From NCBI RefSeq assembly GCF_030463565.1, contig NC_134662.1, positions 2,046,001 to 2,110,000 on the forward strand: a DNA stretch of 64,000 nucleotides. Direction: 5' to 3'. This DNA is from Pelecanus crispus (taxonomy: Eukaryota; Chordata; Aves; Pelecaniformes; Pelecanidae). Position numbers and translations under genes: made by a program. Shown here in pieces: positions 41,090 through 63,929 of the stretch (positions are counted from its first letter, which is position 1; each line of letters starts with the position of its first letter). Below the pieces are notes generated by a model, which saw only the letters and a list, made by a program, of their open reading frames with translations, searched no databases and was not told the DNA's origin.

Positions 41090-41700
41090 TTGGCCACCCC
41101 AGCAGGACGCTCCAGCCCCCCAAGGGTGCTCCTGGCCTCCCAAGGGGATGCTCCAGCCCCCCAAGGGTGCTCCCGGCCCCCCCAGGTGCTTATGGCCCCC
41201 AAGAGGATGCTCTGGCCCCCCAAGGGGATGCTTCAGCCCCCCAAGGGTGCTCCCAGCCCCCCAGGTGTTTCTGGCCGTCAAGAGGATGCTCTGGCTCCCC
41301 CAAGGGTGCTCCTGACCCCCAAGGGGATACTCTGGCCCCCCAAGGGTGCTCCCAGCCCCCCAAGGGTGCTTCTGACCCCCCAAGGGTGCTCCCAGGCCCC
41401 CAAGGGGATGCTCTGGCCCCCCAAAGGTGCTCCTGACCCCACAAAGGTGCTCCTGGCCCCCCAAGGGGGTGCTCTGGCCCCCCAAGGGTGCTCCTGACCC
41501 CCCAAGGGTGCTCCCAGCCCCCCAAGGGTGCTTCTGACCCCCCAAGGGTGCTCCCAGGCCCCCAAGGGGATGCTCTGGCCCCCCAAAGGTGCTCCTGACC
41601 CCCCAAAGGTGCTCCTGGCCCCCCAAGGGGGTGCTCTGGCCCCCCAAAGGTGCTCCTGGCCCCCCAAGGGGGTGCTCTGGCCCCCCAAAGGCCCTCCCAG
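41090..41700. repeat. GC-rich minisatellite, about 20-bp unit with about 162-bp higher-order period
   Basis: About 30 variants of CCCCCCAAGGGTGCTCCTGG are arrayed head to tail. Subtypes (GGTGCTCC, GGGATGCTCTGG, GGGGGTGCTCTGG) recur in the same order: the block starting at 41,351 reappears at 41,513, giving a higher-order period of 162 bp. Both strands stay open over long distances, including a 346-codon minus-strand frame at 40,607-41,647, because the unit lacks stop triplets. This is not a gene. Confidence 0.95.
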
Positions 41701-46380: not shown

Positions 46381-46606
46381 CTAGTTGCGTTGGCTGGCCA
46401 GCTCCTGGGAGATGAATTTCCGAAGGCGCTCGAGGTACTGGCTGTAGAGTTCAATGTCATTGTGCCCGGCCCCGTCCACCCACAGCGGCTCCACAGCCTT
46501 GGGGCAGCGTTCAAAGAGCGCCAGGCCATGGGAGAAGTCGATGACTTCATCCTCCGTGCCGTGGATGATGAGGACGGGAGAGGTGATTTTGGAGATCTTC
46601 TCAATG
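46381..46606 (-). CDS. ABHD17A: ABHD17A coding exon 4 (Asp and His of triad, stop)
   Basis: The exon is 226 nt including TAG. It contains [20 protein letters not shown] (D249) and [20 protein letters not shown] (H278), and ends QELASQRN. The acceptor is TTGGCAG. Confidence 0.95.
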
Positions 46607-49600
46607 CTGCCAAGAAGGTGGGTGGGGAAGAGAGGAGAGGCGGGGGGTAAGTGCAGAGATCAAGGCACTCCCGTTCCTCCTGCCCCCCAAAACACATCCC
46701 CTCGGGGAGAGGGACCAGGAAATGCTCTTTGACCACAGCAGAGCACGGGGACATGGAGCTTCTGCCAAGGATGAGCTCCAGGACAAGATCTGCCCGGCGT
46801 GACAGACGAGGACCAGACAGCGGTGACAACAGCCCCATGGGACCTAGGCAGGGCTGAGGGAAAGGGCTGCAGGACAGCGTGCGCCCAGGCCCTCCCCGCG
46901 CTGGGATCAGCCGTGCCAGGCTTTAAGGAGTGGAAGCACGGCTGTTCTCAGCCCGTCCCCAAAGGCCGCGCGAGGCCATCGGGATGCAGAGCGTGGGCTG
47001 GTGGCTCCCAGCCATCGCATCCGGCTTGGGGACTGTCCCTTGGGCCCCGCTGGCCTCGCTGCAAGCGAGAGGTGAAGCAAGAACTTGTCCCACCTCAGCG
47101 CTGCCTTTCCATGCTGCTGCCCCTGCCCTCTGCAGAGGGGTGGGTGAAGAAAAAGCCCCCAAAATTACCCTTGGGGGAGAGGGGGGTCCTGGGGACCCTC
47201 AGGACTTGTGATACCCGACAATGGGCTAGTGGCACAGCCCCAAAGCTGACAGGCAAAGACGCTGGGACAGGATGGCCAGGAGGCGATGCCACCGGGGGAC
47301 GTGGGGTGCACACACGGCCCTCAGGAGGGGGCACGGTGACCCCAAGGAGGGTTATGATCCCCCGCAGGGGACCAAAAGCAAGGCGGGAGGATCACGATGG
47401 GCGTGTTTAAGCCTATCGTGGGAAACAGGTCCACAATTCTCACCACAACCCCTCTGCGTGGCCGGGGCTGGCGCCCAGGACAGAGCTGGCCTGGGCACCA
47501 CCCCTCCAGCGCTGACCCTGTCCCCCATCCCCTCTCCTCAGGCCACTCACTTGGGGAAGGCATCGAACCAGTAGGTCTTCTTGGTCTCGGGGAAGGCGAC
47601 TCTCATGCCAGAGGTGAGTGGGGAGTGGAGTACAATGGCAGCACACTCATAGCGGGAGGCCAGATCAACCGTGGGCACCGTGCCGATGCTTTGTCCATAT
47701 AAAATAATGTTCTCCGGGCTGATTCCATACCTGGGAGAGGAGAGGGGAGCTCAGCACCCAGGCAGCAGAGTCACATCGCCAGGAGATAGAGCTCAGGGGG
47801 TCACCCTGCTCTGGCCACAGCCCCCTGCAAGGCTTTCTGGGGTGATGGGGGGAACGGGGCTCTGTGCCCCTGCCTTCCCGCAGCTCCTCACGGCTGGGCC
47901 CAAAGCAGCTGCCCTGCAGCCCCGGCAGGACCAGGAAGCAGCCAGGGCTGAGCTGCCGGATGAGTTGTGGGCGGGTGTCAAGGCTCACCCTTGCCAGAAG
48001 CAGGGTTATGGGTGGGTTCACGGACCCCGGATCGCAGCCGCATGGGGCAGCCCCCCGTTCCTGGGGCGGACTGCGAGCCCGGCCCGGCTGCCGGCAGGGC
48101 AGGGGAGGCAGAGCCCATCACGGGGCTGCACGTGGAGCCCGGCTGGGGAAGCGGGGCTGAGCACAGCCAGAGGAGAGCCTGGGAACAGCAAGATGGGGAG
48201 CGCAGCTCGTGCCAGCGTCCCCAGGCAAGGTCATACCCCCACAGCACCCCTGCCCCTCCGGGTCCCCTGGCCCGCTCCTCCTGCAGCTGCTTTCCGGCCA
48301 CCCCTTCCCGTTACGAGCGACCCGGGTTCCCTCTCCAGGAGATTTCCTGTTTTCCAGACTGCCGGCCTGCAGGGTTTTCCTGGACGTCTTCCCTTCCCCC
48401 TGCCAGGCGCCCCGCTCACCGCGTCCGCAGCGCCTGCCACGCGGCGTCGATGTCGGAGTAGAGGTTCCTCTCCGAGGGCTTGCCCGTGCTCACGCCGTAG
48501 CCCGAGTAGTCGTAGGAGAAGATGTTGCAGTTGATGCGGGTGCCCAGCCCGATGTAGAAGCTGCTCATCTGCCCCAGGTCCACGGCGTTGCCGTGCGAGA
48601 AGAGCACCGTGTACCTGCAGCACCGGGGAGAGATGGGCACGGCACGTTAATCGGGGACTCTGCCGCAGTGCCACCGCACTGCCCGGCCCCACCGGCGCCC
48701 CAGGGGCGGCCGTGCCTGCGCAGCGCCAGCCAGAACGTCCGCTTTGGAGGCCGGAAGCCAAACCCCAGGACGCAAAGGGCCAACGCCCCTCTGGCCACCA
48801 AGGAAGGTCCTTGCGACAGCCCCGCTCCAACCCCAGAGATGCTCAGACCCTCCTCACCACCCGGGGCCAGGGGCTCGCTCCCAGCAGAAACGGGCAGCCC
48901 GAAGGCAGGATGATTCTGTTAAAGTTCTTCAGTCTATTTTTGGTAAAAAGCTCAGGATTTGGGGCCGTTCGCCCAATGGGGATTTCAAGTAAGAATTCTG
49001 ACAGCGGATTTTTTTCTCCCCTGAGTCTGGCAAGACACCAGACGCTGGGAGAGAAGTGAATTGTGGGAGTGACAAGGCACAAGAAATTTCCACCATAAGG
49101 GGAAAAACAATGTTAATCATAAAAATTAACACTAATAGCACATTAGCACACAGCTTGGCTCTCTTCTGCCGGAGGGAGGGAGAGGGACCCGCTCCCTGCT
49201 GAGCCCCCACAGTTGGTTCAAGAGGCCTGCGGCCAGGCTGAGCCTCCATGTCCCAGCCTGGATGCCCCAGCAAGAAGGCAATGGCACGACGAGCTGTGGG
49301 TGGGACAGATGGACAGACAGCAAGTGAGACCTGATGCCCCCGAGGGGTTTAGGAGGGCCGGATCCCTGCTCAGTCCCAGCAGCCGGTGCCAAACGGCCGC
49401 TCCCGCGGGCCGGCCGGGGCACGGGCAGGCGGATGTGCAGGCAGAGCAATCCCGCCGCCGGTTTCCTCTCTCCAGGGACCTGCGACGCAGGCAGGGACAG
49501 AGCAGACGTCCCCACCAGGCAGCCCGCGGAGGCCTCCTGTAACGCAGCCCTCCAACCCCCGCGACAGCCACCCCGCCTCGCCCCGAGCCCGCCTGGTGGG

Positions 49601-50854
49601 TTTGAAGCCCTTGGCAAGCCGAGGGCAGATCCAGGACACGTTCCCCGGCACAGAGGTCTCTGCGGACGCCGTCCCTCGGAGGGAGCGTTGCTCCTGGGTG
49701 GATACCAGGGCGTGTGGTCAGCCGGGGTGCTGTAGGCTTTGGGACCTGACTTCCCTCTGCACCTGACCCCCCACGCCGTGCCACCGGCTCGGGGAGCAGC
49801 TGCCGAGTCCCCTCCTGTCCCTGCCATCCCCTCATGCCCAGCCGCTGGCAGCCGGGAGGTGGTCTCCGTCCCGCACCCCGGGCTGCCCTTCTCCAGCTTC
49901 CCAGTTTACAGACCCATGGGAGTGACCAGCAGCAGCTTGCACCTAAATCCCTCCCGGCTTTCACTCCCATTGCTCTTCTCCTTGAGGAATCAAACGTGCC
50001 AGTGAATTAGACTGACGCGCAGACCTGGATCACCGCAGGTGTCTCCTGGCCAGCGCAGGCTCTTGCCCATCCTGCGGTCACCGTGGGGCTGGGGACAGAG
50101 GGCGAGCAGCCGGCACAGACCCCCCCGGCGCTCACCGAGAGCCTCTCACAGACGCTCGGTTCACAACTGGAGCGTTACGTCACCTGCATGACATCAGGGG
50201 GAATCTGCGGGACAGCCTAGAGGATCCCTGCATCCCTATAGCCTCCAGCTTTGCCTCCACTCCGTGTTTAACCCCATTCCCAGCTGCAGCCACAAGCCAG
50301 ACCGGTCCTGGGAGCCAAGCCCGCCCGCCCCACAGGACGCCTCCAAACCCCGGTGGCGGTGGCGGGGCCGGCTCCCTCAGCAAGGCGCCGGGGCAGGCGG
50401 GGTCGTGGTGGCATTCGGCTGAAGGGGAGGAGGGGCAGGACGGCACTGTGCCCACCAGCACCGAACCAGCCTGGCGGTGAGCAGGCTGGGGTCAAACTGC
50501 CGGCAGCGGCGCCGGGCCGGCACCTCCACGGGCAACTCACCTGGCGCCTGGCACGCAGCGGACGTACATGCAGCCGACGCGGTTCCCTCGGCTGCTTTTG
50601 GTGACGAACACCTCGATGTTGTCCAGCTCCCGCTGAGAGTACTGGAAATCCGCCCGGTCCTTCAAGTGCAGCTTCCACCGCCCCGCGGTGCCGCCGCGTA
50701 GGGAGCCGGTGCTGGTGCTGCCCACGGGCTCCGGCTCGGGGACCACGGCGTAGGTGGGCTCCGGAGGCAGGAAGGCCAGTTTGGCGGCGATGCGGCTGGG
50801 GCAGGGAGGGCAGCAGAAGAGGCAGCAGAGTTGGCTGATCGACAGCCCATTCAT
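46381..50854 (-). CDS. ABHD17A: ABHD17A, alpha/beta-hydrolase 17A depalmitoylase, complete
   Basis: A serine hydrolase that removes S-palmitoyl groups from membrane proteins; N-Ras and PSD-95 are known substrates of the family. It acts at plasma and endosomal membranes. Four coding exons give 304 aa (human 310). The N-terminus [20 protein letters not shown] has the cysteine cluster (C10, C11, C14, C15, C18) that is itself palmitoylated and anchors the protein. The oxyanion strand is FSHGNAVD (110-117). The triad is S184 in GQSIG, D249 in GTEDE and H278 in GHND. All introns are phase 2. A variable Pro/Gly/Ser/Thr linker (about 36-56) separates anchor and fold. The start ATG has a GCCGCC context. 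ABHD17B and ABHD17C are excluded mainly by synteny with REXO1; the family assignment is certain. Confidence 0.96.
46607..47550 (-). other. ABHD17A: ABHD17A third coding-region intron
   Basis: This is a 944-nt GC-rich intron with nothing recognisable. The 689-nt intron at 47,731-48,419 is likewise featureless. Confidence 0.8.
47551..47730 (-). CDS. ABHD17A: ABHD17A coding exon 3 (nucleophile)
   Basis: The exon is 180 nt. It contains [19 protein letters not shown] with the nucleophile S184, and [20 protein letters not shown]. The acceptor is CTCCCAG and the donor CCAA|GTGAGT. Confidence 0.95.
48420..48614 (-). CDS. ABHD17A: ABHD17A coding exon 2
   Basis: The exon is 195 nt, from [20 protein letters not shown] to [11 protein letters not shown]. 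The acceptor is GCTGCAG and the donor CGCG|GTGAGC. It holds the HGNAVD strand-turn and the conserved [16 protein letters not shown] motif. Confidence 0.95.
48615..50540 (-). other. ABHD17A: ABHD17A first coding-region intron
   Basis: This is a 1.9-kb intron, mostly GC-rich, with an unusual AT-rich block at 48,905-49,145 that is listed separately. Open frames of more than 200 codons in it are GC-content artefacts. Confidence 0.8.
48905..49145. promoter_or_regulatory. AT-rich intronic block, candidate enhancer
   Basis: About 240 bp of AT-rich sequence sits inside a GC-rich intron. It carries inverted half-sites GTTAAT and ATTAAC seven bases apart (HNF1-like halves with wrong spacing) and several TTTTTGG/ATTTC words. 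Composition alone makes it a candidate conserved noncoding element; no factor is asserted. Confidence 0.35.
50541..50854 (-). CDS. ABHD17A: ABHD17A coding exon 1
   Basis: The exon is 104 codons plus 2 nt, from the ATG at 50,854 to VRCVPGA. The donor is CCAG|GTGAGT. A CGCAG acceptor at 50,878 would leave a 23-nt 5'UTR in this exon, so the transcript probably starts in an upstream noncoding exon. Confidence 0.95.
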
Positions 50855-52189
50855 GACGGCGGCAAGGCAAAAGGCAGCTGCGCCCGGAGCGAGGGAGGAT
50901 CCAAATCGGAGAGAGGCCGGGAACGACAACGGCCCGGAGAGGCCCCGTCCTCAGCTGGCCCTTGGCACGGCTGCCGCTGGCAGTCCACCGCGGGCCGGGG
51001 CGCTGGTCGGGGCTGGGGCGGCCGCCATCCGTCCGTCTGCGGGCAGCAGCGGTGGCCTGCGGGCAGGTCAGGCAGCAGTGAGGGCTCTGCAGCTGGCACC
51101 CCCCAGACACGCATGACCCACGGCCGGGGCCAAACACGCACCTCCCCGGCACATGCACGCGCTGGCAAACACGTGCACCGCACCCCCCGAGCCAAGGGGC
51201 GCGCCGTCCCCCCGCAACACACACCCACAGCGCGCACCCGCCGCTCACAGCTCCCACGCTCGCGCCGAACCCACGCACCCCCCAAAACCAAGCCTCCTCC
51301 AACGCTTCCCAGCCCACACAGCCCCACTCTACGCGCCGCAGCCCCCACGCACAGGCCCACGCCGGGGAGGCGAGGACGGTGGGCGCAGGATCGCGCGCAG
51401 GCACACGGCACAACAGCCGCACCGTCAGCGGTACAAAGGCCGCAGCCCCTCCAGGACAGCCCCTGGGCGCCGGCGCAGGCCTGGCCTCGCAGGCGTGCGG
51501 CGGGAGCGCCGAGCTCCTGAAGAAAAAGGGGAGGGGGGGAGAAAGAGGGGGGGAAAAAAAAAAAAAAAGCAACTATTTTCTGCAAGTTTGGGCACAGGCT
51601 TGCACTGAGGAATGTCAAACCAGCCCACACCCCAAGGAATTCGCTCCATCTGCTTCTGAAGGGCTGGGAAAGGGGAGGAAAGGGTGGAGGGGGGAGGCGG
51701 CCTGCCCAGCCAGGAGGGGAAGGCATGAGGCGCCAAAATATGCCCAAATATTCGGAGTGAAGGGATGCCCCATGCCCTAGCCCTGCCACAGGCCCTGCAC
51801 TTTGGGGGCTGGGGCTGAATTTGGGTCCCCCTAGGGCCGGTGGCCATCCACAGCGGTGCTGGGGCCGGCGTCACAGCTGGCACACGGCAGCCCCGGCGCT
51901 CCCTGGGTTTGGCACCCTGCGTGCCAGCCAGACCACGTGCAGCCGCGGCGGCCGAGGGTGTCCGGCGGCCGCACACCTGCACGGGCACGTCGGGGCGTGG
52001 GTCCACGCAGGCAGAGGCAGGCAGCGGCCGGCAGTGCAGGCGCTGCGTGTCACGCTCACGCCGTGTGTCATGCTCGCGCCGTGTGTCACGCTCGCGCCGG
52101 GCCAAACCCCGACACCGGCTGGGACAGGCAGCCCTGCCTGCCCGGCTGCCCTCGCCCCGCAGCCGTCACGGGGGGCAGATCCACACCAC

Positions 52190-52690
52190 ACCCCAACCCT
52201 GACCCCACACCCACTCACCCCATGCCTGGCGTGGGGGCTGGATCCACACCACACACAGGCACTGACCCCCCCAACACACACACACAGGGTGGGGGGATCC
52301 ACACGGCACCCACTCACCGACCCGAGTGGGACACACAGACACTGACCCACGTGGGACCCCCCACCCCACACTGACCCGCATGGGACCCCCCTCCACTGCC
52401 AGGCGTGGGACCCCCACCCCGCATACACTGACCGGTGTGGGCCTCTAACCCCCCACGGGCTGGTGGGGGGGGTCCCACACACACACTGACCTGCGTGGGC
52501 CCCCCCCCCGGCTGCTGCGGGCCTCCCTGCCCTACTGACTGCTGTGGGACCCCCGGACACACACTGACCCGCGTGGGACCGCCCCACTGACCGGTAGGCC
52601 CCCCACACACACACACTGACCGGGTGGGGCCCCCCCACCGATCGCCGTGGGCCTCACTCCCCCCACTGACCATAGTGGGACTGTGGGCCC
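52190..52690. repeat. Minisatellite, CACACTGACCCGCGTGGGAC-like unit
   Basis: Degenerate 20-40-bp units share CACTGACC(C/G)GYGTGGGACCCCC. Spacing is irregular. The sequence grades into the following GATCACT array, so both probably share one origin. Confidence 0.85.
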
Positions 52691-53240
52691 CCCCCCGATC
52701 ACTGTGGCACCCCCACGATCACTATGGGCCCCCTCCGATCAGTGTGGGCCCCCCCCCCCGATCACTGTGGCACCTCCACGATCACTGTGGGCCCCCCCAC
52801 GATCATTGTGAGCTGCTCCACGATCACTGTGGGCCCCCCCCATCACTGTGGCACCTCCACGATCACTATGGGCCCCCCCGATCACTGTGGGCCCCCCCCA
52901 CGATCACTCTGGGCCCCCCCATGATCACTGTGGGCCCCCCCCGATCATTGTGGCACCTCCACGATCACTCTGAGCCCCCCCCCGATCACTCTGGGCCCTC
53001 CCATGATGGCTGTAGGGCCCTCCCCGATCGCTGTGGCCCCCCCATGATCACTGTGGGCCCCCCCCGATCGCTGTGGGCCCCTCCCGATCGCCGTGGCACC
53101 CCCACGATCGCTGTAGGGCCCTCCACGATCACTCTGGGCCCCCCCACGATCACTCTGGGCCCCCCCACGATCACTCTGCCCCCCCCCCACGATCACCGTG
53201 CCCCCCTCCCCCCGATCACTCTGGGCCCCCCCCCCCCACT
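52690..53240. repeat. Minisatellite, CGATCACTGTGGGCCCCCC unit
   Basis: Roughly 25 copies of a 19-22-bp unit ACGATCACTGTGGGCCCCCC occur, with GTGGCACCTCC and CTCTGGG variants. The minus strand is a series of G7-G9 runs and has strong quadruplex potential. The array ends directly at the ABHD17A CpG island. Confidence 0.93.
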
Positions 53241-53249
53241 GACCGGTGC

Positions 53250-53620
53250 CCCCCCACCCCCCGCCGCGGGACCCGTCCTCCCGCAGGGGCCCCAGCACCC
53301 ACCCGTGCCTCCCCCCGGCCGAGGCGGGCCCGCGCCCCCCCGTACCCGGACATGCTCCGCCGCGGCCCGGCCCGGGCCCCCCGCGCTCGGGGCCGCCGAA
53401 GGGACGCGCGGCCGCTGCGGGGCCTCGGAGCGGGGCGGCGCTGCACAGCGGCCGCTTGGCCCCGCCCTCCCCCCGCCCGGAAGTGACGCCATCACGCCGC
53501 CCTCGTTGCTAGGGCAACGGCGCGGCCTGCTCGGCGGCTTCCCGCCTCTGGGGGCTGCCGGGCGGAGCGGGGCGGCGAGCCCACGCACCGCGGCCGCGAT
53601 ATTCCGGTCCCCCCCGAAAA
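53250..53620. promoter_or_regulatory. ABHD17A: CpG-island promoter of ABHD17A
   Basis: Dense CpG spans this stretch. It carries a CCGGAAGTGACG ETS/CRE composite at 53,478-53,488 and an X-box palindrome at 53,505-53,518. It is the only CpG island upstream of ABHD17A in the window, so it is the likely promoter. Confidence 0.75.
53505..53518. promoter_or_regulatory. RFX-type X-box
   Basis: GTTGCTAGGGCAAC matches the RFX-family X-box pattern (GTTRCC, short gap, RGYAAC) with both half-sites intact. It lies about 20 bp from the ETS/CRE composite in the CpG island. Confidence 0.6.
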
Positions 53621-53639
53621 AATCCAGATGTCAAACGCA

Positions 53640-53932
53640 GCCCGGCTTCCCTCAGGAAGCCCTCAGGCCTGGAGCACAAGTCGCGTGAGGAGCGGCTGAG
53701 GGAACGGAGCGCTTCCGAGCGTGGCCAGGGAAGGGCAGCGGAGCTGGGGAAGGGTCCGGAGCACGGGGCTGATGGGGGGCGGCTGAGGGAGCTGGGGGTG
53801 TTCAGCCTGGAGAAGGGGAGGCTGAGGGGAGAGGGGGGCACTTGGGGACATGGTTTAGTGGGCATGGGGGTGCTGGGTTGATGATTGGACTGATGATCTT
53901 AGAGGTCCTTTCCAATCTTAATGATTCCCAGA
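53640..53932 (+). mobile_element. CR1 LINE 3' fragment, internally deleted and rearranged
   Basis: CR1 3'-end words (CTGGAGCACAAGTC, GAGGAGCGGCTGAGGG, CAGCCTGGAGAAGGGGAGGC, GATGATCTTAGAGGTCCTTT) appear in order. About 200 bp of body is missing after CTGAGGGGAGA, compared with the copy at 54.1 kb. Confidence 0.85.
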
Positions 53933-53984
53933 TTTTACTTTCATTATAAATAATCCAGCCACCAAGCCAGGAAACATGAAATTG

Positions 53985-54094
53985 CTGCTCTACCCTTAAT
54001 TGGTTTAGTGGTGGACTTGGTAATGTTAGGTTAATGGTTGGGCTGGATGATCTTCAAGGGCTTTTCCAACCTGAACGATTCTATGATTCTATGA
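53985..54094 (+). mobile_element. CR1 LINE 3' terminus with ATTCTATG tail
   Basis: GGTTGGGCTGGATGATCTTC, then CTTTTCCAACCTGAACG, ends in two tandem ATTCTATG words. This is the characteristic CR1 3' microsatellite that replaces a poly(A) tail. Confidence 0.9.
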
Positions 54095-54466
54095 ACCAGG
54101 GTTGTTTGGTCTGGAGAAGAGGAGGCTGAGGGGAGACCTGATAGCTCTCTACAACCACCTGACAGGAGGGTGCAGCGAGGAGGGTGTTGGTCTCTTCTCC
54201 CAAGCAACCAGCGACAGGACGAGAGGAAATGGCCTCAAGTTGCGCCAGCGAAGGCTTAGATTGGATATTAGGAAAAATTTCCTCATGGAAAGAGCGGTCA
54301 AGCATTGGAACAGGCTGCCCAGAGAGGTGGGGGAGTCCCCATCCCTGGAAGTGTTCAAAAAACGGGCAGCGGTGGCACTCTGGGACGTGGTTTAGTGGGC
54401 ATGGGGGTGTTGGGCTGATGGTTGGGCTGATGATCTTAGAGATCCTTTCCAACCTTAATGATTCCT
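54095..54466 (+). mobile_element. CR1 LINE 3' fragment
   Basis: About 370 bp of CR1 3' region is present, from TTTGGTCTGGAGAAGAGGAG through AGACCTGATAGCTCTCTACA, AGGAAAAATTTCCTCATGGA and AGGCTGCCCAGAGAGGTGG to GATCCTTTCCAACCTTAATG. It is a 5'-truncated non-LTR insertion and no reverse transcriptase is present. Confidence 0.93.
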
Positions 54467-54654
54467 AGTTTTTACTTTCATTAAATATTCCAGCCACCAA
54501 GCCAGGAAACATGAAATTAATTATGACTCTACCCTTAATTGGTTTAGTAGTGGACTTGGTAGTCTTAGGTTAATGGTTCGACTGGATGATCTTAAAGGTC
54601 TTTTCCAACAAAACAATTTGATGATTCTATGAAAGTGGACACGCAGGGGAAGGG

Positions 54655-54724
54655 GGTTTGGGCCCAGGCCTAGGACCCGGGTGGGACGTAGGTCCCACCC
54701 GGGTCCTAGGCCTGGGCCCAAACC
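54655..54724. repeat. Perfect inverted repeat: 33-bp arms, 4-nt loop
   Basis: The arms at 54,655-54,687 and 54,692-54,724 are exact reverse complements around the loop GTAG. They contain nested palindromic words GGGCCC, CCTAGG and CCCGGG. It begins about 22 bp after the last CR1 tail. Complete identity over 33 GC-rich bases means a very recent origin, selection or an artefact. Confidence 0.97.
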
Positions 54725-54934
54725 ATCCCCCCGAGTCATGAGCACTGTGGGGTCCCACTTCAGCCCTGCAAACGTGGGTGGAGGATGCAGCTCCTCCACC
54801 AAGGGGGAATCTGGTACCCCTGGGCCTAGGGGGGCTGGATACGGCCCCAGGACACAGCCTAAGTACCGGGGTGGCTGGAAGAGAAATCGGGAGTCCGGGT
54901 GCCAGAAGTGAGGCACTTCTAACCCCCGCTAGCA

Positions 54935-55015
54935 CCGGGCACAATTATCCACGGGGAAACTGAGGCATGGAGCCCCACAGCTGCCCCAGAGGAGCCCAGA
55001 GCTGAGCAGGTGCCG
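54935..55015 (+). repeat. MIR-like SINE core fragment
   Basis: ATTATCCACGGGGAAACTGA then GGCATGGAG matches the MIR core (ATTATCCCCATTTTACAGATGGGGAAACTGAGGC) in shortened form. Confidence 0.4.
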
Positions 55016-55049
55016 GCATGCAACACATCCGTGCCCATAACAAACTATC

Positions 55050-57601
55050 CACAGCATCCAAGCAAACTAGACTGTATTAATATTTACACGTATGAAGAGG
55101 AAGGAGATAAAAGGAACAAGGTAGGTGGTGAAGCAGGCGGCTGCCCGCTTCCCATGTGGGCTTTCCCGTTGCATCCATGGGAGCTGCTTCCCCTCCCCAG
55201 GGGCTCACGACCTTTGTGCCAACGCAAGGTGAGGGCTGGTTGCAATTTCTTACAGCTTCCCCCCCTCCAAGAGTGACAGCTCGTTCTCAGCCAAAACCTC
55301 AACAGCAAAACCCAGGCTCACCCTGCACTGCCGGCACCGCGCTTACGGCCCAGGTGCATCCCGGCACTAAAACGTGCCGCCACTCGCATGCTCCGGCTGT
55401 GACGCCAACATCACCCAGAAGCAAAAACCTGAGGAAAAGGCTGGCAAGAGCCAACCTCCCTCACCTCTGCTCTGCACTGGCAGGCAATTTGCATCATTTT
55501 TGGAGGTCCAAATCCTCCCGGTAACACTGTACGATGGTAGCTGCCGCAGGGCACGCACCACTTTGGCTGAAATCAGATAGGAAAAACAAAACCTTCGCAA
55601 CAGTGCCCCTGCAATCAGTGGGGCAGAACTGCCATAAACAGGGGAGGAAGCCAACGCTTGGAAGAAGCTGCCCTGATTTCCCCCGGCTGCCGGTTCAGCC
55701 CCTGCGGCTCCGCTCTCCAACACCCTTGTACGAGCCGATGCTGAGGGAAATGCTTCCAAAGCGTGGGACGGCCAGAAGCGGGGCAGAGGCTGCTGCTTTT
55801 CCCCTGGGACCTGTCCGGGTTTCTCTGCCTGTGAGACCACGGGAGCCCCGTGGCCGCAGCCCCGCGGCCACAGCCCCGCTCCTGGCGTTCCCAGGGAGAG
55901 CTCCCTGCCAGGGTGCTCTGGGGCAGGCGCAGACCCTGCGCGGTGCGGAGGCGGCTTTCAGCACATCCCAGGAGCCTCCGCCTGCCTTTCGCTGCGTACC
56001 CAAGCCCCGCGTTTCCCTTTCTAACAGCCCCAGAGCCCTCCACGTGTTTTTCCTGGAGTGCCACCGAGCCCGGCATTTGGCTTTCCCTGCACCCCAGAGC
56101 CCTCCACATGCGTGTGTGAGTGTGCGCGCCCCAGAGCCTTCCAGGTGCCTTTTGGGGTGCTCGAGCCCTCTGAGAATGTTTAGTGTACCCCAAAGCTCTC
56201 CTTCTGCCTTCCCTTGCACTCCAGAGCCCTCCTTGAGTCTTCCAGGACCCCTAAAAACTCTACGGATCTTTCAGTTGGCCCAGAGCCCTCCAAGTGCCTC
56301 TCCCTGCTGCCCAGGGCTCGCCACGGGCTGTTCTGAAAGCCCCCTGCACTTCCAGGCACCCCAAGATCCTCCTTGTGACTTTTCAAGTGCCCTGCAGCCC
56401 TTCACGTGCCTTTCCCTACACCACAGATCCCTCTGTTCAGCTTTTGGAGCATCTCCTGGGGATCTGGCCCTGCCTTTTGTCCCACAGGGACGAGCAGCGA
56501 GGCAGGAGGGTTGGGTGGGCTTCCTGAGCCAACGTGCTCATAGAGGAGAATGGCTCTCACCCAGTATCAGCGAGGCCCACGAGGGAGGAAGGGTTCCCGC
56601 CATCCACCTGCGTGCAGGGACAGGAAAGGAGCGGAGGTTTGGCGATCTGAGCTTTGTGCACAACCCTGATGAGAAAGAATCGTGTAAGGCAGAAGGCGGG
56701 GAGCGGAGGGGAGAGGAGAGGCGCAGGCGCCGCTGTGTTACAACAAACCTCGCTCGGGAAGCGGCCAGCGGTTATTCAGGGGGTGTTGAAGCACGGGAGG
56801 CTGGAGCAAGGGTGTCCCGCAGCCCAGCCACGTCCCTGGACGCAGCAAGCCTGGCAGGCTGGCTCCCTCCCCATGGCGAGAGGTGTGAGGCAGCGAGCAG
56901 CACTTTCCTAAAGGTCCTGACCCGCGGCTGGAGCGTGTCTACGTCGCTTCAAGCCACAAAATAACTGTACTGTGCCAGTACTCTGCTGCTTAACCACGCC
57001 GGTGCTTCAACAACAGTGTCTCAAAAGAAGGGGAGGGGTATTTGGGGCATTAAAACTACAGAATCCTCTTTTCTGCATCTGAGACCAAACACCTCTCGGG
57101 GAGCAGAAGGCAGCCTTGCTGCCAAGATTCTCCAGCTCCCGGTTTTACATCCGCCACAAAGAGACGGTGGGGCAGAGGGAATGAAGTCCAGTGGCAGCTC
57201 ATGGGCTCCAGCCGCGAGTCCCAAGTGGTTCGCAGGACTCGGAGCTGCCGGCTGAAGGGAGAGGCCGCCCCGCAGAGCCCTGCTGCCCACGCCGTGCAAA
57301 CCACCCCAGCGGAAGACAAATCTGAAGGTCTCAGCACTGGAGCAGTGGGGCAGGATGGTCCCTCTTCCCTTGGGAAGCTGGTCAAGAACAGATCTGTGGC
57401 TGTTGTAGGGGCAGGAAGGAAGAGAAGGAACGCCAACTTTCTGCTGAAGAAGTGCGAAGAGTCTCCACGTCCGGGCGCTGGTTTGTGTGTGCTGCTGAAG
57501 TCCCCATCGCACCACCGACGGGTCTGGGAGGAAGAGGAAGGCTGGGAGGAAGGGGAGGAGCACCAGGCCACCTGGCTGCAGTTGGAGCTGCTCAGCCCCC
57601 T
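55050..57601 (-). other. Probable 3'UTR of the ZFAND5-like gene (end uncertain)
   Basis: About 2.5 kb downstream of the TGA stop holds no other recognised gene. No AATAAA was found on the minus strand. The variant signal AATACA in an AT-rich patch at about 55,070-55,085, followed by GT-rich sequence, is the best candidate end. The stretch includes a degenerate minisatellite at 56,030-56,440. A 476-codon plus-strand frame across it matches nothing. Confidence 0.35.
56028..56440. repeat. Degenerate about 30-bp minisatellite (CCCAGAGCCCTCCA)
   Basis: CAGAGCCCTCCA-like cores recur at about 56,032, 56,093, 56,132, 56,163, 56,191, 56,221 and 56,281, mostly 28-31 or 60-61 bp apart, with GTGCCTTTCCCTGCAC-like spacers. 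The divergence suggests an old array. Confidence 0.75.
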
Positions 57602-57750
57602 TCACAACTTCTGGATCTTCTCAGCAATAACGATGGGGTTCTCCTTACGGATCTTCTCCGCGGCTTCTGCCTTGTAGTCGTAGGGGCAGGCGTGCATGTC
57701 GGAGTACCGGTGAATGGCACAGAACAGGTTCCCACAGCGGCAGTCGAAGC
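57602..57750 (-). CDS. ZFAND5-like coding exon 5 (AN1 second half, stop)
   Basis: The exon is 149 nt including TGA at 57,604-57,602. It encodes [20 protein letters not shown] and onward to KIQKL. The acceptor is CTTTCAG. It is the best conserved exon of the gene. Confidence 0.96.
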
Positions 57751-60700
57751 CTGAAAGGAGGAGGAGCAGAGAGACAAAGCCACGTTAGTCCCCGGCCAGC
57801 CGGACAGGAAGGCAGCAGGGCCCCCTCTCTTTCCTGCCGGGCCAGGAAACTCCACTAATGCAGAAAGAGGGTCAGATGAGGGAGGGGGGGCCATTGTCCT
57901 TGACAGGCAAAAGGGAGTTTCAGTGTGGGGGAAGACCACGGGTTGTTCTTCAGTTTCCTCTGGCTTAGCTGATCCTGTGAGCGCACGCGTGCTCTGGGCA
58001 GCCCCAGCTGTCACGGCGGTGGGAAACGCTCTCAGAGCAGCTGCTCTCCGCGTTCCCCGGGGACAAGGGACATGCCGGGGACTGCAGAGTACCAGATTGC
58101 TAATCCAGACCAGGCTCCCCAGGCTGCAAGGAGGCAGCCTGCGCTGGAGCCGAGCCCTCCGAGCCAGCCTGGCTCCCCAAGCGTCACGCAGCAGCATCTG
58201 GACTGACCAGCAGTAAGCCAGCAAGCAGCAAAACCTTCACCTCGTTAGGATCACTTTTGAGCTATTTAGGTTTCAAAATTCATAATTTAGTCCCTTCACT
58301 TGGAGATAATGCTGTTCTGAAGTGCTACCGTTATCACAGCACATTGGGAAACTGAGGCACGGAGCAGGAAGGGAGTTTGCTGCAGGACAGCAGATCAGCT
58401 CCCCGTCGCGCTGGACTCGCACTCCTTGCTTTCACGAAAGGTTTCCAACTACAGGCTGTAAGGACCACAAACACCTTGCTACAAGGTGCCAGTTTACTCC
58501 TATTTGAGAAAACTCATTTTATCCCAAGTGCCCTGAATTCACAGGAGTTCTCTGCAAGTTGATTCCTAAAGGAGAGGAAACTTCTCACAGTTTGAAGCTC
58601 TTAAGGAAACATCCAGGAAAACAATCCCCCCTGCAGATCTGAAGGGTGGGCACAGAGAACCCTGCCCAGTCCTAGGCTCATAACCCCATGTTTATTTTAT
58701 GGCAGCGCCCTCAAAATCCAGGCAAGCCCGGGTTCCGCAGTGTCAGGCGCTGGGCAAACCTCCCAGGCCAGACCATGTCAAGCAGCTCACATCAATGAAA
58801 GCAGAAGCGTGTGTGCAGTGCCTGGCTGCTGAACGCACCGAGGAGGCTAAAGAGGCGAGCGCTCGGCTAGAACAGCGTGACCTGCATAGCTCTGGAGTTA
58901 ACTTTTTCCAGGGAAACACTAAATGCCAGAGTCAATTTAGGGGAATGATGTTTTTATTAACAAACCACAGCCAAGTTAATTGCTTCATGAATTGCCTTTC
59001 CAGGGGCAGTTTTCCCACTGATACCAGTCACCTGACACCGTCTCAGCTCTTCTCTCTCTTCAGCTTTACAGACTGAACACTGAGAGCCATCCTGCTCTCA
59101 GGAAGCTAACGGCACAAGTGAAGCAGCATTAACAAACAGGATGAGTCTTGGAGTGCGATTTTCAGTTTGGGTCTAACTCGGTTCGTGTCACTATTAGGAA
59201 AGCTTTACCGCTGCCTTGAATAGGAGCAGAATTAGATCCACAGCGAGTACTGCCCTTCCTTCTACAAGCAGCTTTTGCCAAGCAGCAGAAATAACCCGAG
59301 AGGCCAGGCTCCATCCAGCTCCACAATCCTGCATGCAAGGGCTGGCAGGGACCCTGAGGATGAGTGGCAGATTCCCTGAGCTCCTGCCTCGGCCAGTGCT
59401 GTTCGCGGGTCAGAGCTCCCCTCTCACCTCCCCTGCAGCACCACGTCTTGCGGATGTAAAGTACTTTTTGGAGGGGTACGTCCAACCACTGACCCACGCC
59501 AACCCTCTGAACCCAGGCACTCTCACAGCACAAGGAGATCTGTTTGCAGGGCTATGAAACCAGACTAGTCAGGCCACAGGCAAGCTTTCCCCACAGCCAG
59601 GGTCTTACCGGTTAGCCCTATCTTCTTCCGGCAAGTGAAGCAGCGATTCTTCTTCTGTTTCGGTTTTTCTGAAGCTGTCTTGCCCTCAGCTGTGTTCTGG
59701 GATATTTCAAGCAGGGTACCTGAAACAGAGGCAAGAGTTTTGCTACTCTTCTTGATAAACCAAGCAATGCATTCGGTTTATTACAGGAGCTGCTTGAGGC
59801 CCTACCGATTCTGGGTCTGTGCCAGACACCTCTTGTGCGCACGTCGCCCTGGCCGACATACCCCAAACTGTGAGATTTGCCTTGTTCCACAGACATCTAC
59901 ACCTCACACGGCCTCATGTTTTCTCGCTGTTTCAAATTCCTTAAGTCGAAGGCTCAGAAACACCAAGGAGATATTACGGTTTAGCTAAGGCATACGTAAG
60001 ATAATGTGATGCCATTTAGTTCCTGCTGAGAAAAAGTATTACTAAGTAGAACTACCTGGTGCTTGCCATAAGTATGCTTCTGGATAGCCACTACAGCTTA
60101 GCTGATGTACAGTAACTCAATTGCACAGCTGAGCCTAGAGTTAATCTTTGCAGGGAAAAAAAAAGTTAACCCCTCGTAAGTACTACTAATTATTTTTGCT
60201 CGCTCTTACATAAGTGTTCCTCATATGTAGGTCTCAGAATGCTTTACACAGATACTCATCACTGTCTCTAATCTACCAAAAGGAAAACTGAGCTCTGAAA
60301 GCCAGATTGTTAAAGGTCACTGATGCTTAGCAGGATTTCCTACAGTACCTAAGCAGGTTAGAGAAGTCAACAGGAGGGAGGAGCTCCAACTGCTAGCAGA
60401 TACACACCTGCAGTGCATGCTGTGCTGAAAATCAGGCTAAGGAGACAAACAGTCAGAGGCAGAGATCGCTTTGTGGATCTGACCCTAAACAGCTTTCTCA
60501 AAATCCCACAATCAGAAGAAAGGGGCAGGCTCTTCCAAGCCTCTCCTTCACCAAATATCTCTCACCTGCCTGTTCTAAACTGTCTCCTGGGCTTGCAGGC
60601 CAGGGATTACCAAATCCAAAATGCACGCTCATGTGACTAGAGCCTGGTTTTTTTAGCAACCAACGACTCCTGGGGGTTTTTTAGCTTTGAATGCAAGCAA

Positions 60701-63700
60701 ACTGTCAGTTGAACTAAAGGAGGGTGTCTCAAACGCAGTGTCACTTGGTTATGGCTCAGCACAATGGCTCACCCTGTTACTTGTCTGGAGGACAGACCCC
60801 GCTGGGCAACGACACCCGTGCCCCGCTATCACTTCAAGGTACCACTCTGCAAACAAAGCGACAGCATTAACGCTCCCCTCCGAGGGGCAGGTATGCCTCC
60901 CGTCGCACAGGATGGCAGCAGCCAGGCCAGCAGCTGGCCCTGGGCACCGCCACAAACACATTTCCTCTCTCCCAAGACTACTCTGGGTCCATCTCCTTCC
61001 CTCCCTCGAGAGATGCAGGGAACTGCAGCCAACAACAGCCATGCGGCAGGCTGTGGGACGCTCCGGGCTTTCTGCCATTCACTAGGATAGGCGTCATGGA
61101 AGATTATCCTCCTGCCAGCGAGTCGAGGGCTGGCAGCTACTCAGCCCTCAGCCCACAAAGCAGTATCTATCGGCCTGCCCTCAGGCACAACATTTTTCTC
61201 TCCTCCCTGTCTCAGCAACAGACAAACTGTTTTCTCCTTAGCTCTCTTGCCAGGTGTACCTTTCCTGACGGGAGGTAACAACTGTCCCCTGGAGCTAGTG
61301 GCCGGTATTGTACTTGCTGCTCAAACTGACTTGCGAGATCGGTGTCATTCAGACTCAGGCAAAGGCCAAACCATCTACCTGATGAGGAAGATGCTGAAGA
61401 GGCTTCTTCTGTCTTTATGAATTCTTCTGTCTCACTGCTGTTCTCTTCTCTGGATATGCTCATGGCCGTCATCTGATGGGTCACAGGAGTCTGAGCACTG
61501 GGAGCATTTGCAGCAAACAAACAAACAAACATAGAGCAACCACAAGTATTTTCTTTTGATGAACAGTTATGTGGGAGATATCTTCAGCCCATAAAGTTAA
61601 TTTTATGATACTCAGAGGTAGCTCAGCAGGCCAATTCCCTTTGAGATTTGGGATCAAAGTTCTTCATAGACACAAATGGAATGAATCTATGATGACTTCA
61701 GTTTCCTCTTTCACCCAATTATATCTCAAAGCCAAGACAACAGCCCGTCCAAACAAGTCCAGGGACAGGGAAACAGAGTCATGAGTCAGGACTGTAATGC
61801 CATGGTAGAGCTCAACGCAGTGCTACCTTCCTTCCTATCAAACATGACTGAGGTCCCTAACCCTGCTGTCGCAGCTTCCAGACTGCATCATCACCAGGTG
61901 CTTTCACTTAGGACTGAGCTGCAACCAACCAGTTTAATACAGCTAGTGACAGACAAGGTGCACTGGCTCCAAGAGAACCAGGATGCCACTTCATTTACTA
62001 CAGATTTTAATTTACTACCGACCCTCTGGTACCTGACTGCGCATCAGTCATCATCATCAGGGACATCTCGGTCTTCCAGACAAACCAGGGTCACAATGGA
62101 CAGCGACCCAGCCCGCTTTACAGATCCCCTTGGCCATATGAAGGACGAGAGCCTACCCCTTGTGTCCCAGGGCTGGTTTTTAGCAGGGCTGTAGATCCCC
62201 TTACCCTGTAGGCTATGCCCCTACCTGGCTTTCACATCCTCGGGCGTGGAGTCTCCCTCTGCACGCTGCCCTGCAATCGAGTCTGAAGCCATTGGGCTGC
62301 TGTTGGGACCGCTGGGAGCTACGAGACAAGATTACAGTCTTGGTAAACTCTTAAAAATGTCAGCAAGTTGCTCAGGTGCTTGACAGCCAAGGAGAAAGCA
62401 GGATGAGCACTTTCAGCAGGCTTTAACCTGCTGCTCCCTTCCAGGAGCCGGGAGGGCACACCCCAGCTGGGATCACTCCCAGATCCCTTATTCTTATACC
62501 CTCCCCTCCAAATCTGTGCATCCGTCTCTGTGGGGACAACACATCAGCGCTGGACGGACCTCACTGTGACCCAGTGCAGCTATTCTTACATTAGATCAGG
62601 AATGACTCCTCGTATCAGGATCATAACATCTTTCTGAAATTAGCTGCTCATCTTCCTGAGGACTGCAGGCCTCGTTTATGGAGACCTGTTCAGCTCCTCA
62701 GGATCTGCGAACTCCCTTTTGAGGGATGACAGTTTATTCGCAGGAGTTACGTGCTGAATGCCTTCCATTACTGTGTTTTTTAATGTCTGGTAAAATCTGA
62801 CTTCAGTCACCCATGACGCCTCCATCATTCTTTGATTCCCCTTCTTTTCCTCAAAATTGCAAAGCGAACTCCACATCAGCATAAATATTCTCCTGTCAGC
62901 ATAAATGAAAGTGCTGCACTTACTAATATACCTTGAACCCAACATTACTCTGCAACTTCTCCAACATGTAAGAACCAGATCCTCATCTGCTGAAAGGAAC
63001 TGGCTTCAACAGAAACACGTCTGTTTATGTCAGCCGAGATCTAAGTCAGGGTCTTTGGAAAACCCCTTTGTCAGGAAGAGCTGTATTTTGGGTGGGTAAT
63101 TCAAGGAAAGCCATTATTACGCTCAGGAACAAAACTGCAAAAGATCTCTGGAAGGCATTTCTAACCAGTATTGCAAAGCCTGTACATGGGGCATCTCTGA
63201 AAACTCTCAGCAAAAGAAAATCCTGCTAATGATGGAAAGAGCAACCTTCCCGTGCACCTAGCTGCCTCCCAGCTCGCTGATACAGCAGCTCTGTTTAGCT
63301 GCAAGAAACAAACCCTTTATTTCATCACTTTTGATTTTCACCACTGTTAAGATAAGAAAATTATGCAAGCCCAAAAGGCCAAATTCTTCCCAAATAAAAA
63401 GGCATTTCAGGCATCTGTTGTGATTCCCAGCAGCCAGCACATAACTCAGGGAGCAGGTAATAGCTAAAAATCTGGGCCACTGGTAGTGCAAGCGACGTTT
63501 TACAGTTTACTGGAAGGTGCTGACTGGGATGGGGCTTCACAAACAGCTGGGACTGGGAAGAAAACAGCTGACCCCCTTACAGGGAACAGAAACGCTCGAA
63601 GGCTCAGGTCTTTGATTTAGAGGCTTAGGTCTACACGAAAAGGGAACGACACGAGTTTTCCAGGATGGAATAAATCTGCTGGTGGCCAGTAGCAGTACCA

Positions 63701-63929
63701 CGCTCTATCCCAGTTGCTTAATACCGTTTGCACCCAGGCACCCATTTAAGACAGATTTCTCAGGCAAAAATCCTCTACCTGGGGGGCTTATCCGGTCACT
63801 GCTCTGCTGCCTCTGCAGAAACTCCTTATAGCAAACGGAACACATCCCATTAGTCCGGGGGCTGCCATAAAATCCACAGCCTGTGGTACAGAACAGGGGC
63901 ACCTGCGTTTGGTTTGTCTCCTGAGCCAT
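57602..63929 (-). CDS. ZFAND5-like A20/AN1 zinc-finger protein, complete
   Basis: A 207-aa protein of the ZFAND5/ZFAND6 family, whose members bind ubiquitin through the A20 finger and act with the proteasome or NF-kB signalling. Five coding exons join in frame. The A20 finger has C14, C18, C30 and C33 within [20 protein letters not shown] and [17 protein letters not shown] low-complexity linker follows, with [10 protein letters not shown] (91-100), close to ZFAND5. The AN1 finger has C148, C151, C162, C164, C169, H172, H178 and C180. The C-terminus is [19 protein letters not shown]. Human ZFAND5 is 213 aa and ZFAND6 208 aa. It shares features with both ([10 protein letters not shown] as ZFAND5; AAEKIRKEN as ZFAND6), so it is probably a third paralogue, and no official symbol is given. 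The start is the family MAQETN. An acceptor 23 nt upstream shows that a 5' noncoding exon lies outside the window. Confidence 0.95.
57751..59608 (-). other. ZFAND5-like intron between coding exons 4 and 5
   Basis: This is a 1.9-kb intron. It contains a MIR-like core at about 58,335-58,440 and is otherwise unremarkable. Confidence 0.8.
58335..58440 (+). repeat. MIR-like SINE core fragment
   Basis: ACATTGGGAAACTGAGGCAC then GGAGCAGGAAGGGAGTTTGC and GACTCGCACTCC follow the order of the MIR core (GGGGAAACTGAGGC, then the segment read as GGATTCGAACCC). Confidence 0.5.
59609..59719 (-). CDS. ZFAND5-like coding exon 4 (AN1 first half)
   Basis: The exon is 111 nt, encoding [20 protein letters not shown] then [16 protein letters not shown]. 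It contributes the first Cys pair of the AN1 finger. The acceptor is TTTCAG and the donor ACCG|GTAAGA. Confidence 0.94.
59720..61378 (-). other. ZFAND5-like intron between coding exons 3 and 4
   Basis: This is a 1.7-kb intron. The part at about 60,225-60,330 (TCTCAGAATGCTTTACACAG then AGGAAAACTGAGCTCTGAAA) resembles an old MIR/CORE-SINE. An unidentified interspersed repeat may continue to about 60,560. Confidence 0.65.
61379..61497 (-). CDS. ZFAND5-like coding exon 3
   Basis: The exon is 119 nt, encoding [20 protein letters not shown] followed by an acidic/Ser-rich stretch ending ASSASSSSG. The acceptor is CTCCCAG and the donor TCAG|GTAGAT. Confidence 0.92.
61498..62224 (-). other. ZFAND5-like intron between coding exons 2 and 3
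   Basis: This is a 727-nt intron. A (TTTG)4 tetranucleotide run (plus strand AAAC, 61,513-61,530) lies in the acceptor tract of exon 3. A 137-codon plus-strand frame at 61,781-62,194 is judged chance. Confidence 0.75.
62225..62318 (-). CDS. ZFAND5-like coding exon 2
   Basis: The exon is 94 nt, encoding [20 protein letters not shown] and [11 protein letters not shown]. It was placed by phase (1 in, 2 out), the TCTCGTAG acceptor and the CCAG|GTAGGG donor. It resembles the Ser/Pro-rich linker of ZFAND5. Confidence 0.88.
62319..63778 (-). other. ZFAND5-like first coding-region intron
   Basis: This is a 1.5-kb intron of moderate GC with no recognised repeat or RNA gene. Confidence 0.8.

Follow-up and report, generated by a model that had tools for sequence, protein, structure and literature searches.

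The window analyzed here is a 64-kb stretch of the Pelecanus crispus genome, and splicing of its minus strand indicated two intact genes between position 46381, the last base of one stop codon, and position 63929, the first base of the other start codon. The first gene is ABHD17A, which has four coding exons and encodes 304 aa. The second is an A20/AN1 zinc finger gene of five coding exons and 207 aa, which we refer to as the ZFAND third copy. All coding introns in the two genes begin with GT and end with AG, and neither reading frame is interrupted before its stop codon. The genes share a strand and are separated by 6.7 kb with ZFAND upstream, an arrangement that an earlier note had proposed from the unspliced sequence and that both spliced models bear out. 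Just beyond the window, ~1.8-2.1 kb 5' of the ZFAND start codon, is a CpG-rich stretch with a GC content of 0.82-0.84.

Coding exons of the two genes in the Pelecanus crispus window
Feature	Position	Strand	Basis or remark
ZFAND third copy coding exon 1 (start codon, A20 zinc finger)	63779..63929	-	151 nt, the length of exon 1 in P. crispus ZFAND5 and ZFAND6; zf-A20 match
ZFAND third copy coding exon 2 (linker)	62225..62318	-	End phase 2, as in ZFAND5/ZFAND6
ZFAND third copy coding exon 3 (linker, with a ZFAND5-like stretch of 15 residues)	61379..61497	-	End phase 1, as in ZFAND5/ZFAND6
ZFAND third copy coding exon 4 (AN1 finger, first half)	59609..59719	-	End phase 1, as in ZFAND5/ZFAND6
ZFAND third copy coding exon 5 (AN1 second half, C-terminal tail, stop)	57602..57750	-	149 nt, length as in ZFAND5/ZFAND6
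ABHD17A coding exon 1	50541..50854	-	Splicing of minus strand
ABHD17A coding exon 2	48420..48614	-	Splicing of minus strand
ABHD17A coding exon 3	47551..47730	-	Splicing of minus strand
ABHD17A coding exon 4, with stop codon	46381..46606	-	Splicing of minus strand

The predicted product of the ZFAND third copy matched the Pfam zf-A20 domain at 40.7 bits (cutoff, 21.6) and the zf-AN1 domain at 35.5 bits (cutoff, 27.9), and its top matches among solved structures were two ZFAND5 chains aligned over the full length (E values of 4e-70 and 7e-70). The N-terminal A20 finger carries four cysteines at positions 14, 18, 30, and 33, as in human ZFAND5, and the ligands of the C-terminal AN1 finger (C148, C151, C162, C164, C169, H172, H178, and C180) each lie 6 residues earlier than in human ZFAND5, such that the spacing of all 12 Cys/His residues of the two fingers matches that of the human protein. 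The linker between the fingers is far diverged, and some domain residues that are constant in all four ZFAND5/6 sequences compared are changed in the ZFAND third copy, including N23S and H37F in A20 and M150T and G170A in AN1. Because several conserved domain residues are changed, binding of ubiquitin or of an ATPase could differ. Diagnostic sites were defined as those with one residue in both P. crispus and human ZFAND5 and another in both P. crispus and human ZFAND6, the human ZFAND6 sequence being a provisional one. Of the 50 sites so defined, the ZFAND third copy matches ZFAND5 at 20 and ZFAND6 at 13, and it differs from both at the other 17, and thus the mixture of ZFAND5-like and ZFAND6-like positions suggested earlier is present. 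Two residues shared with ZFAND5, F168 and D183, were also found as F and D in the sequence of 1wfh, which we take to be a plant protein, when its alignment was read by eye. The two residues therefore look ancestral and by themselves do not pair the ZFAND third copy with ZFAND5.

Provisional probe sequences indicated that the gene order around the window is ATP8B-like, REXO1, ABHD17A, ZFAND, SCAMP, and CSNK1G, an order that presumably follows that of human 19p13.3. The same kind of probe gave no match around the window for KLF16 or ADAT3, both of which we would expect between REXO1 and CSNK1G. Two further arms of similar composition were found in the P. crispus genome. On C46, ZFAND5 (plus strand, 40,247,047-40,257,597) is followed after a gap of 118 kb by ABHD17B (plus strand, from 40,375,720), and on C7, ZFAND6 (plus strand, 9,968,116-9,980,078) is followed after 237 kb by ABHD17C (plus strand, from 10,217,249). 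The pairing of ABHD17B with ZFAND5 and of ABHD17C with ZFAND6, which had been anticipated from the human map, thus holds in this bird. With the window, which belongs to C20, the three arms agree in layout: the two genes share a strand, and ZFAND is upstream of ABHD17. ZFAND5, ZFAND6, and the ZFAND third copy each have five coding exons, and all four coding introns agree in position and phase (phases 1, 2, 1, and 1). Because the four coding introns keep their position and phase, we conclude that the ZFAND third copy is not a retrocopy.

The relationship of the three genes was examined in an unrooted tree of five sequences: the ZFAND third copy, P. crispus and human ZFAND5, and P. crispus and human ZFAND6, the last again provisional. 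The ZFAND third copy fell between the ZFAND5 and ZFAND6 clades. Grouping with ZFAND5 was rejected by the AU test over the two domains (P = 0.0013-0.0014) and over the full length (P = 0.0005), and was still rejected when the provisional human ZFAND6 sequence was omitted (P = 0.0006-0.001). Grouping with ZFAND6 was likewise rejected over the domains (P = 0.0036-0.0046) and the full length (P ≤ 3.3e-5), in both cases with the provisional sequence included. The more conservative SH test over the domains of all five sequences fell short of significance for both groupings (P = 0.06 for ZFAND5 and ~0.08 for ZFAND6) and gave P = 0.013 for ZFAND5 when the provisional sequence was left out. Nesting of the protein inside either ZFAND5 or ZFAND6, the outcome named in advance as damaging to an ancient origin, was rejected by the AU test (P < 0.005).

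The three ZFAND genes were also similarly distant from one another. Over the two domains, the ZFAND third copy was identical to P. crispus ZFAND5 at 95 of 119 residues and to P. crispus ZFAND6 at 92 of 119, and the domain arms measured 0.131 for the third copy, 0.097 for the ZFAND5 stem, and 0.113 for the ZFAND6 stem. ABHD17A, -B, and -C formed a similar star, with identities of 77-79% and arms of 0.152, 0.146, and 0.136. The two-domain dN of the ZFAND third copy was 0.12-0.13; dS was not computable, and only 8 of 30 fourfold sites were identical to ZFAND5 and 4 of 32 to ZFAND6. Synonymous sites of the ZFAND third copy are apparently saturated. Saturation and near-equal arms fit a duplication dated between the split from invertebrates and the gnathostome radiation.

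The most likely origin of the three arms is a single ZFAND-ABHD17 pair that predated the early vertebrate genome doublings. The doublings would then have generated three arms or more, one carrying ZFAND5 and ABHD17B, another ZFAND6 and ABHD17C, and a third the ZFAND third copy and ABHD17A. Both the tree position and the shared order and strand on three arms support the idea, put forward in the earlier note, that the locus is the third arm of a paralogon produced by vertebrate whole-genome duplication. A published analysis describes a paralogon on four chromosomes that dates from 1R/2R and has CSNK1G and TJP among its families, with quartets that are translocation-free in chicken (PMC13143021). 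The ZFAND-ABHD17 pair would add a linked family pair to that paralogon. We conclude that the ZFAND third copy is, with high probability, a third 2R ohnologue, located on the 19p13.3-like arm; its status as an ohnologue is well supported, and we infer the timing at 2R.

Other origins were considered. ZFAND might already have been double before the genome doublings, with different copies lost on different arms, a history that the unrooted ZFAND tree would allow. Such a history is improbable, as the layout of ZFAND and ABHD17 is the same on every arm and the domain arms of the three ZFAND genes are roughly as even in length as those of the three ABHD17 genes. If instead ZFAND5 or ZFAND6 had been duplicated within the lineage, a copy that came to lie beside ABHD17A and then evolved fast could explain the slightly greater domain identity to ZFAND5 and the exon 3 stretch that the two genes have in common. 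We consider it very unlikely: both groupings were rejected by the AU test, that with ZFAND5 also without the provisional sequence; at 8 domain sites, counted by hand, the ZFAND third copy agrees with ZFAND6 where both ZFAND5 sequences differ; and a duplicate would be unlikely to land by chance next to the third ABHD17 with matching order and strand. Moreover, P. crispus has a second copy of ZFAND5, on C45, with a single mismatch to the C46 copy across the 151 bases of exon 1 and with the same last 50 residues as human ZFAND5. Since the C45 copy is nearly unchanged where examined, a copy made within the lineage looks quite unlike the ZFAND third copy. We note that the genome lists of A20 and AN1 genes are incomplete, as the AN1 exons of the C45 copy were absent from the first AN1 list. 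Least probable of all is a nonfunctional copy, whether decaying or processed, given five exons with canonical splice sites, all coding introns, 207 open codons, a full set of zinc ligands, low dN beside apparently saturated synonymous sites, and the CpG-rich stretch upstream.

ABHD17A on human 19p13.3 is not known to have a ZFAND5/6 partner beside it. In the accessible text of one review, the mammalian table lists ZFAND3, 5, and 6 as the sole proteins that combine A20 with AN1. On the basis of that table and of the gene content known for 19p13.3, the ZFAND third copy is apparently missing in humans and other mammals. Retention had been proposed for this bird lineage, and the gene is indeed intact here; the restriction to one lineage may be too narrow, as a chicken gene (LOC426626) has a fitting name. 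According to the accessible text of one report, that gene, named as a third ZFAND5-like bird gene would be, is differentially expressed in embryo liver (PMC12111442). The chicken gene is likened to the ZFAND third copy by its name, and a W copy of ZFAND5 is an alternative identity for it. Zebrafish zfand5b does not look like the ZFAND third copy, because the reverse primer in the accessible text of one paper encodes a ZFAND5-type end, ADKIQRI-stop (PMC7035286), a weak indication read by hand. Two other names were false leads: "ZFAND5L" proved to be the text "ZFAND5low" (PMC9326020), and "ZFAND7" is, in the source text available, a name used for the unrelated IGHMBP2. In the openly licensed literature, no paper was found on ABHD17A together with ZFAND5, and the titles and abstract openings found, mostly not full texts, mentioned no third ZFAND5/6 gene.

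The conserved domains suggest that the ZFAND third copy most likely works like ZFAND5 and ZFAND6. The A20 finger would hold ubiquitin on a substrate, the flexible linker would span the distance, and the AN1 finger would dock on an AAA ATPase, for which the models would be Rpt5 of the 26S proteasome, as for ZFAND5, and Pex6, which needs both fingers, as for ZFAND6. For ZFAND5, the accessible text of one study reports that A20 binds ubiquitin and AN1 binds Rpt5 (PMC11799193). Judged from sequence, we lean slightly toward a proteasome or AAA-ATPase adaptor with a role close to that of ZFAND5. More broadly, a third ancestral ZFAND5/6-type gene, next to ABHD17A since the doublings and lost toward humans, probably gives birds, and perhaps other nonmammals, an extra ubiquitin-reading adaptor for the proteasome or an AAA ATPase. 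If so, mammalian studies would have had no chance of encountering the adaptor. Research on ZFAND5 and ZFAND6 in mammals concerns their regulation of proteasomal and peroxisomal turnover, and a third ohnologue would make the mammalian pair an incomplete set. Comparison of three arms rather than two would help separate ancestral from new functions, and the ZFAND third copy lends itself well to the question of when the copy beside ABHD17A was lost.

The ZFAND third copy resembles both of its relatives in some features and differs from each in others. Like ZFAND5 (ZNF216), it has A20 followed by AN1 and a five-exon coding plan with equal phases, shares 80% identity over the two domains, and has the exon 3 stretch in common. 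Unlike ZFAND5, it falls outside the ZFAND5 clade, carries ZFAND6 states at the eight hand-counted domain sites, ends in QKL rather than QRI, has a different linker, and adjoins ABHD17A rather than ABHD17B. Like ZFAND6 (AWP1), it has A20 followed by AN1 and an equal coding plan, with 77% identity over the two domains, and the two proteins have in common a stretch of 16 residues and the stretch AEKIRKENP. Unlike ZFAND6, it falls outside the ZFAND6 clade, lies by ABHD17A and not ABHD17C, and has an AN1 finger of a different 10-residue type where ZFAND6 has FECRCGNVYC.

The minus strand of the window (C20:2046001-2110000, from a 1.31-Gb genome in 310 contigs) carries the entire coding regions of two genes: ABHD17A, with four coding exons encoding 304 amino acids, and, upstream across a gap of 6.7 kb, a ZFAND gene with five coding exons encoding 207 amino acids. 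All coding introns of both genes are GT..AG, and both reading frames are open. In Pfam, the ZFAND protein scored above the cutoff for zf-A20 and zf-AN1 and ABHD17A matched alpha/beta-hydrolase families, and the best solved-structure matches to the ZFAND protein were full-length ZFAND5 chains. Moreover, the lengths of exon 1 (151 nt) and exon 5 (149 nt) and the phases of the four introns (1, 2, 1, and 1) were common to the window gene, ZFAND5, and ZFAND6; a retrocopy origin is therefore excluded. We conclude that the ZFAND gene beside ABHD17A is real and that the two lie on the same strand, as the earlier note had described.

Other ABHD17 family members were located by an ABHD17A search of the genome. 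ABHD17B lies 118 kb downstream of ZFAND5 on the same strand of contig C46 (86.8 Mb), and ABHD17C lies 237 kb downstream of ZFAND6 on the same strand of contig C7, which is the order and strand relation of the window pair. ZFAND5 on C46 was identical to human ZFAND5 over the last 50 residues, and ZFAND6 on C7 was 94% identical to a provisional human ZFAND6 sequence in the A20 exon and 96% identical in the last 50 residues. The pairings of ABHD17B with ZFAND5 and of ABHD17C with ZFAND6, proposed from the human map, were borne out within one genome. ABHD17A also has a coding intron (intron 1) after approximately residue 105, where the frame is continuous in ABHD17B (on C46 and C45) and ABHD17C; either ABHD17A acquired this intron or ABHD17B and ABHD17C lost it, a difference that could be of use in ordering the three arms.

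To place the window protein, 119 alignment columns covering A20 and AN1 were compared. The window protein was 79.8% identical to both pelican and human ZFAND5, 77.3% identical to pelican ZFAND6, and 78.2% identical to the provisional human ZFAND6, while pelican ZFAND5 and ZFAND6 were 79.8% identical to each other. The maximum-likelihood domain tree was a three-armed star (0.131 for the window protein, 0.097 for the ZFAND5 stem, and 0.113 for the ZFAND6 stem) with within-clade branches each ≤0.035, and full-length arms, with the linker poorly aligned, were 0.327, 0.313, and 0.400, respectively. In the domains, the AU test rejected grouping the window protein with pelican or human ZFAND5 (P = 0.0013 to 0.0014) or ZFAND6 (P = 0.0036 to 0.0046), but under the more conservative SH test these rejections were nonsignificant (0.06 to 0.08). 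At full length, nesting in either was rejected by both AU (P ≤ 0.0005) and SH (0.047 for ZFAND5 and 0.009 for ZFAND6). When the provisional human ZFAND6 was omitted, leaving four rows in which only the ZFAND5 grouping is testable, that grouping was rejected (AU, P = 0.0006 to 0.001; SH, P = 0.002 to 0.013). ABHD17A, -B, and -C formed a similar star at 77 to 79% identity, and near-equal arms in two adjacent families are as predicted by whole-block duplication. In the two domains dN was 0.12 to 0.13 and dS was not computable; fourfold sites matched at 8/30 (window gene versus ZFAND5), 4/32 (window gene versus ZFAND6), and 10/33 (ZFAND5 versus ZFAND6). The GC3 of the window gene, 0.71 versus 0.42 and 0.39 in the other two, is in keeping with the GC-rich region in which the gene lies, but such a bias also reduces the number of synonymous matches. 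We conclude that the window protein is not nested in ZFAND5 or ZFAND6, and that the proposed third arm of a paralogon, with shared order and strand and near-equal arms in both families, stands where testable.

A copy taken to have been made within this lineage served as a control, namely, exons 1, 4, and 5 of a second ZFAND5 on contig C45 (22.2 Mb). Where examined, the ZFAND5 and ABHD17B copies on C45 are nearly identical to those on C46: in ZFAND5, 1 of 151 bases differs in exon 1 and the last 50 residues equal human ZFAND5, although alignable sequence beyond the coding exons is only 68 to 76% identical to the C46 copy. The two contigs fit Z (C46) and W (C45), since the genes of human 9q21 sit on the Z chromosome in birds, and the C45 copies are probably W gametologues. 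On C45, the two genes are separated by 13.4 Mb, so that the pair is no longer intact on this probable W.

The surroundings of the window (199 kb; C20 2006001-2205000) were probed with 16 provisional human peptides at an E cutoff of 0.001. Four matched (ATP8B-like, REXO1, SCAMP, and CSNK1G), in what we take to be the human 19p13.3 order, and the ATP8B-type P4-ATPase gene found with its probe fits such an order. The other 12, including KLF16 and ADAT3, which were presumably to be expected between REXO1 and CSNK1G, had no match at that cutoff in the 199 kb. No KLF-type zinc finger was found with the KLF16 probe between REXO1 and ABHD17A, the position of KLF16 in human; loss, movement, or divergence is possible.

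Approximately 1.8 to 2.1 kb upstream of the window ZFAND start codon, just past the window end, lies a stretch with a GC content of 0.82 to 0.84 and a CpG ratio of 0.77 to 0.86. ZFAND5 has a larger CpG-rich stretch 1.8 to 4.5 kb upstream, and by the same rule ZFAND6 has none within 8.1 kb upstream. A noncoding first exon of the window gene would be plausible in its CpG-rich stretch. Two minisatellites lie in the GC-rich half of the window, and a further array, seen by eye, adjoins and partly overlaps the CpG-rich stretch.

Coordinates of features in the window and on contigs C20 (which carries the window) and C45
Feature	Coordinates	Detail
Second ZFAND5 copy	C45:14713501-14733052	Exons 1, 4, and 5 seen, open
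Second ABHD17B copy	C45:1334265-1351800	Protein 98.6% identical to C46 protein (283/287)
ATP8B-type P4-ATPase gene	C20 2021770-2024933	
ABHD17A intron 1	window 48615-50540	
Minisatellite	window 41109-41688	Units of ~20 bp and multiples
Minisatellite	window 52680-53261	Units of ~20 bp and multiples
Further minisatellite array	window numbering ~66090 to at least 66700 (C20 ~2112090-2112700)	

TJP, CSNK1G, and other families have been assigned to four chromosome regions that arose by 1R/2R, a quartet in which chicken, frog, coelacanth, and gar show no translocations (PMC13143021), and neither ZFAND nor ABHD17 occurs in the main text of that paper. The single ZFAND mention in PMC2682703 concerns local duplicates within human chromosome 9. 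In the available part of a review, the mammalian ZFAND table gives A20 plus AN1 only for ZFAND3, -5, and -6, which fits a probable absence of the third gene from mammals (PMC11799193). A library search for the chicken gene LOC426626 returned only PMC12111442; LOC426626 may be the chicken orthologue, in which case the gene model is already known and the history of the gene is not.

According to the same review, the ZFAND5 A20 finger binds ubiquitin around Thr55/Asp58, its AN1 finger binds Rpt5 with widening of the channel, and a flexible region separates the two, while the ZFAND6 A20 finger binds monoubiquitinated Pex5 and Pex6 needs both fingers (PMC11799193). Because the window protein keeps 12 of 12 zinc ligands and approximately 80% of both domains, our best guess from sequence is that its role would resemble that of ZFAND5 and ZFAND6. 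Changes at residues invariant in four ZFAND5/6 rows (e.g., N23S, H37F, M150T, and G170A) leave room for an altered partner.
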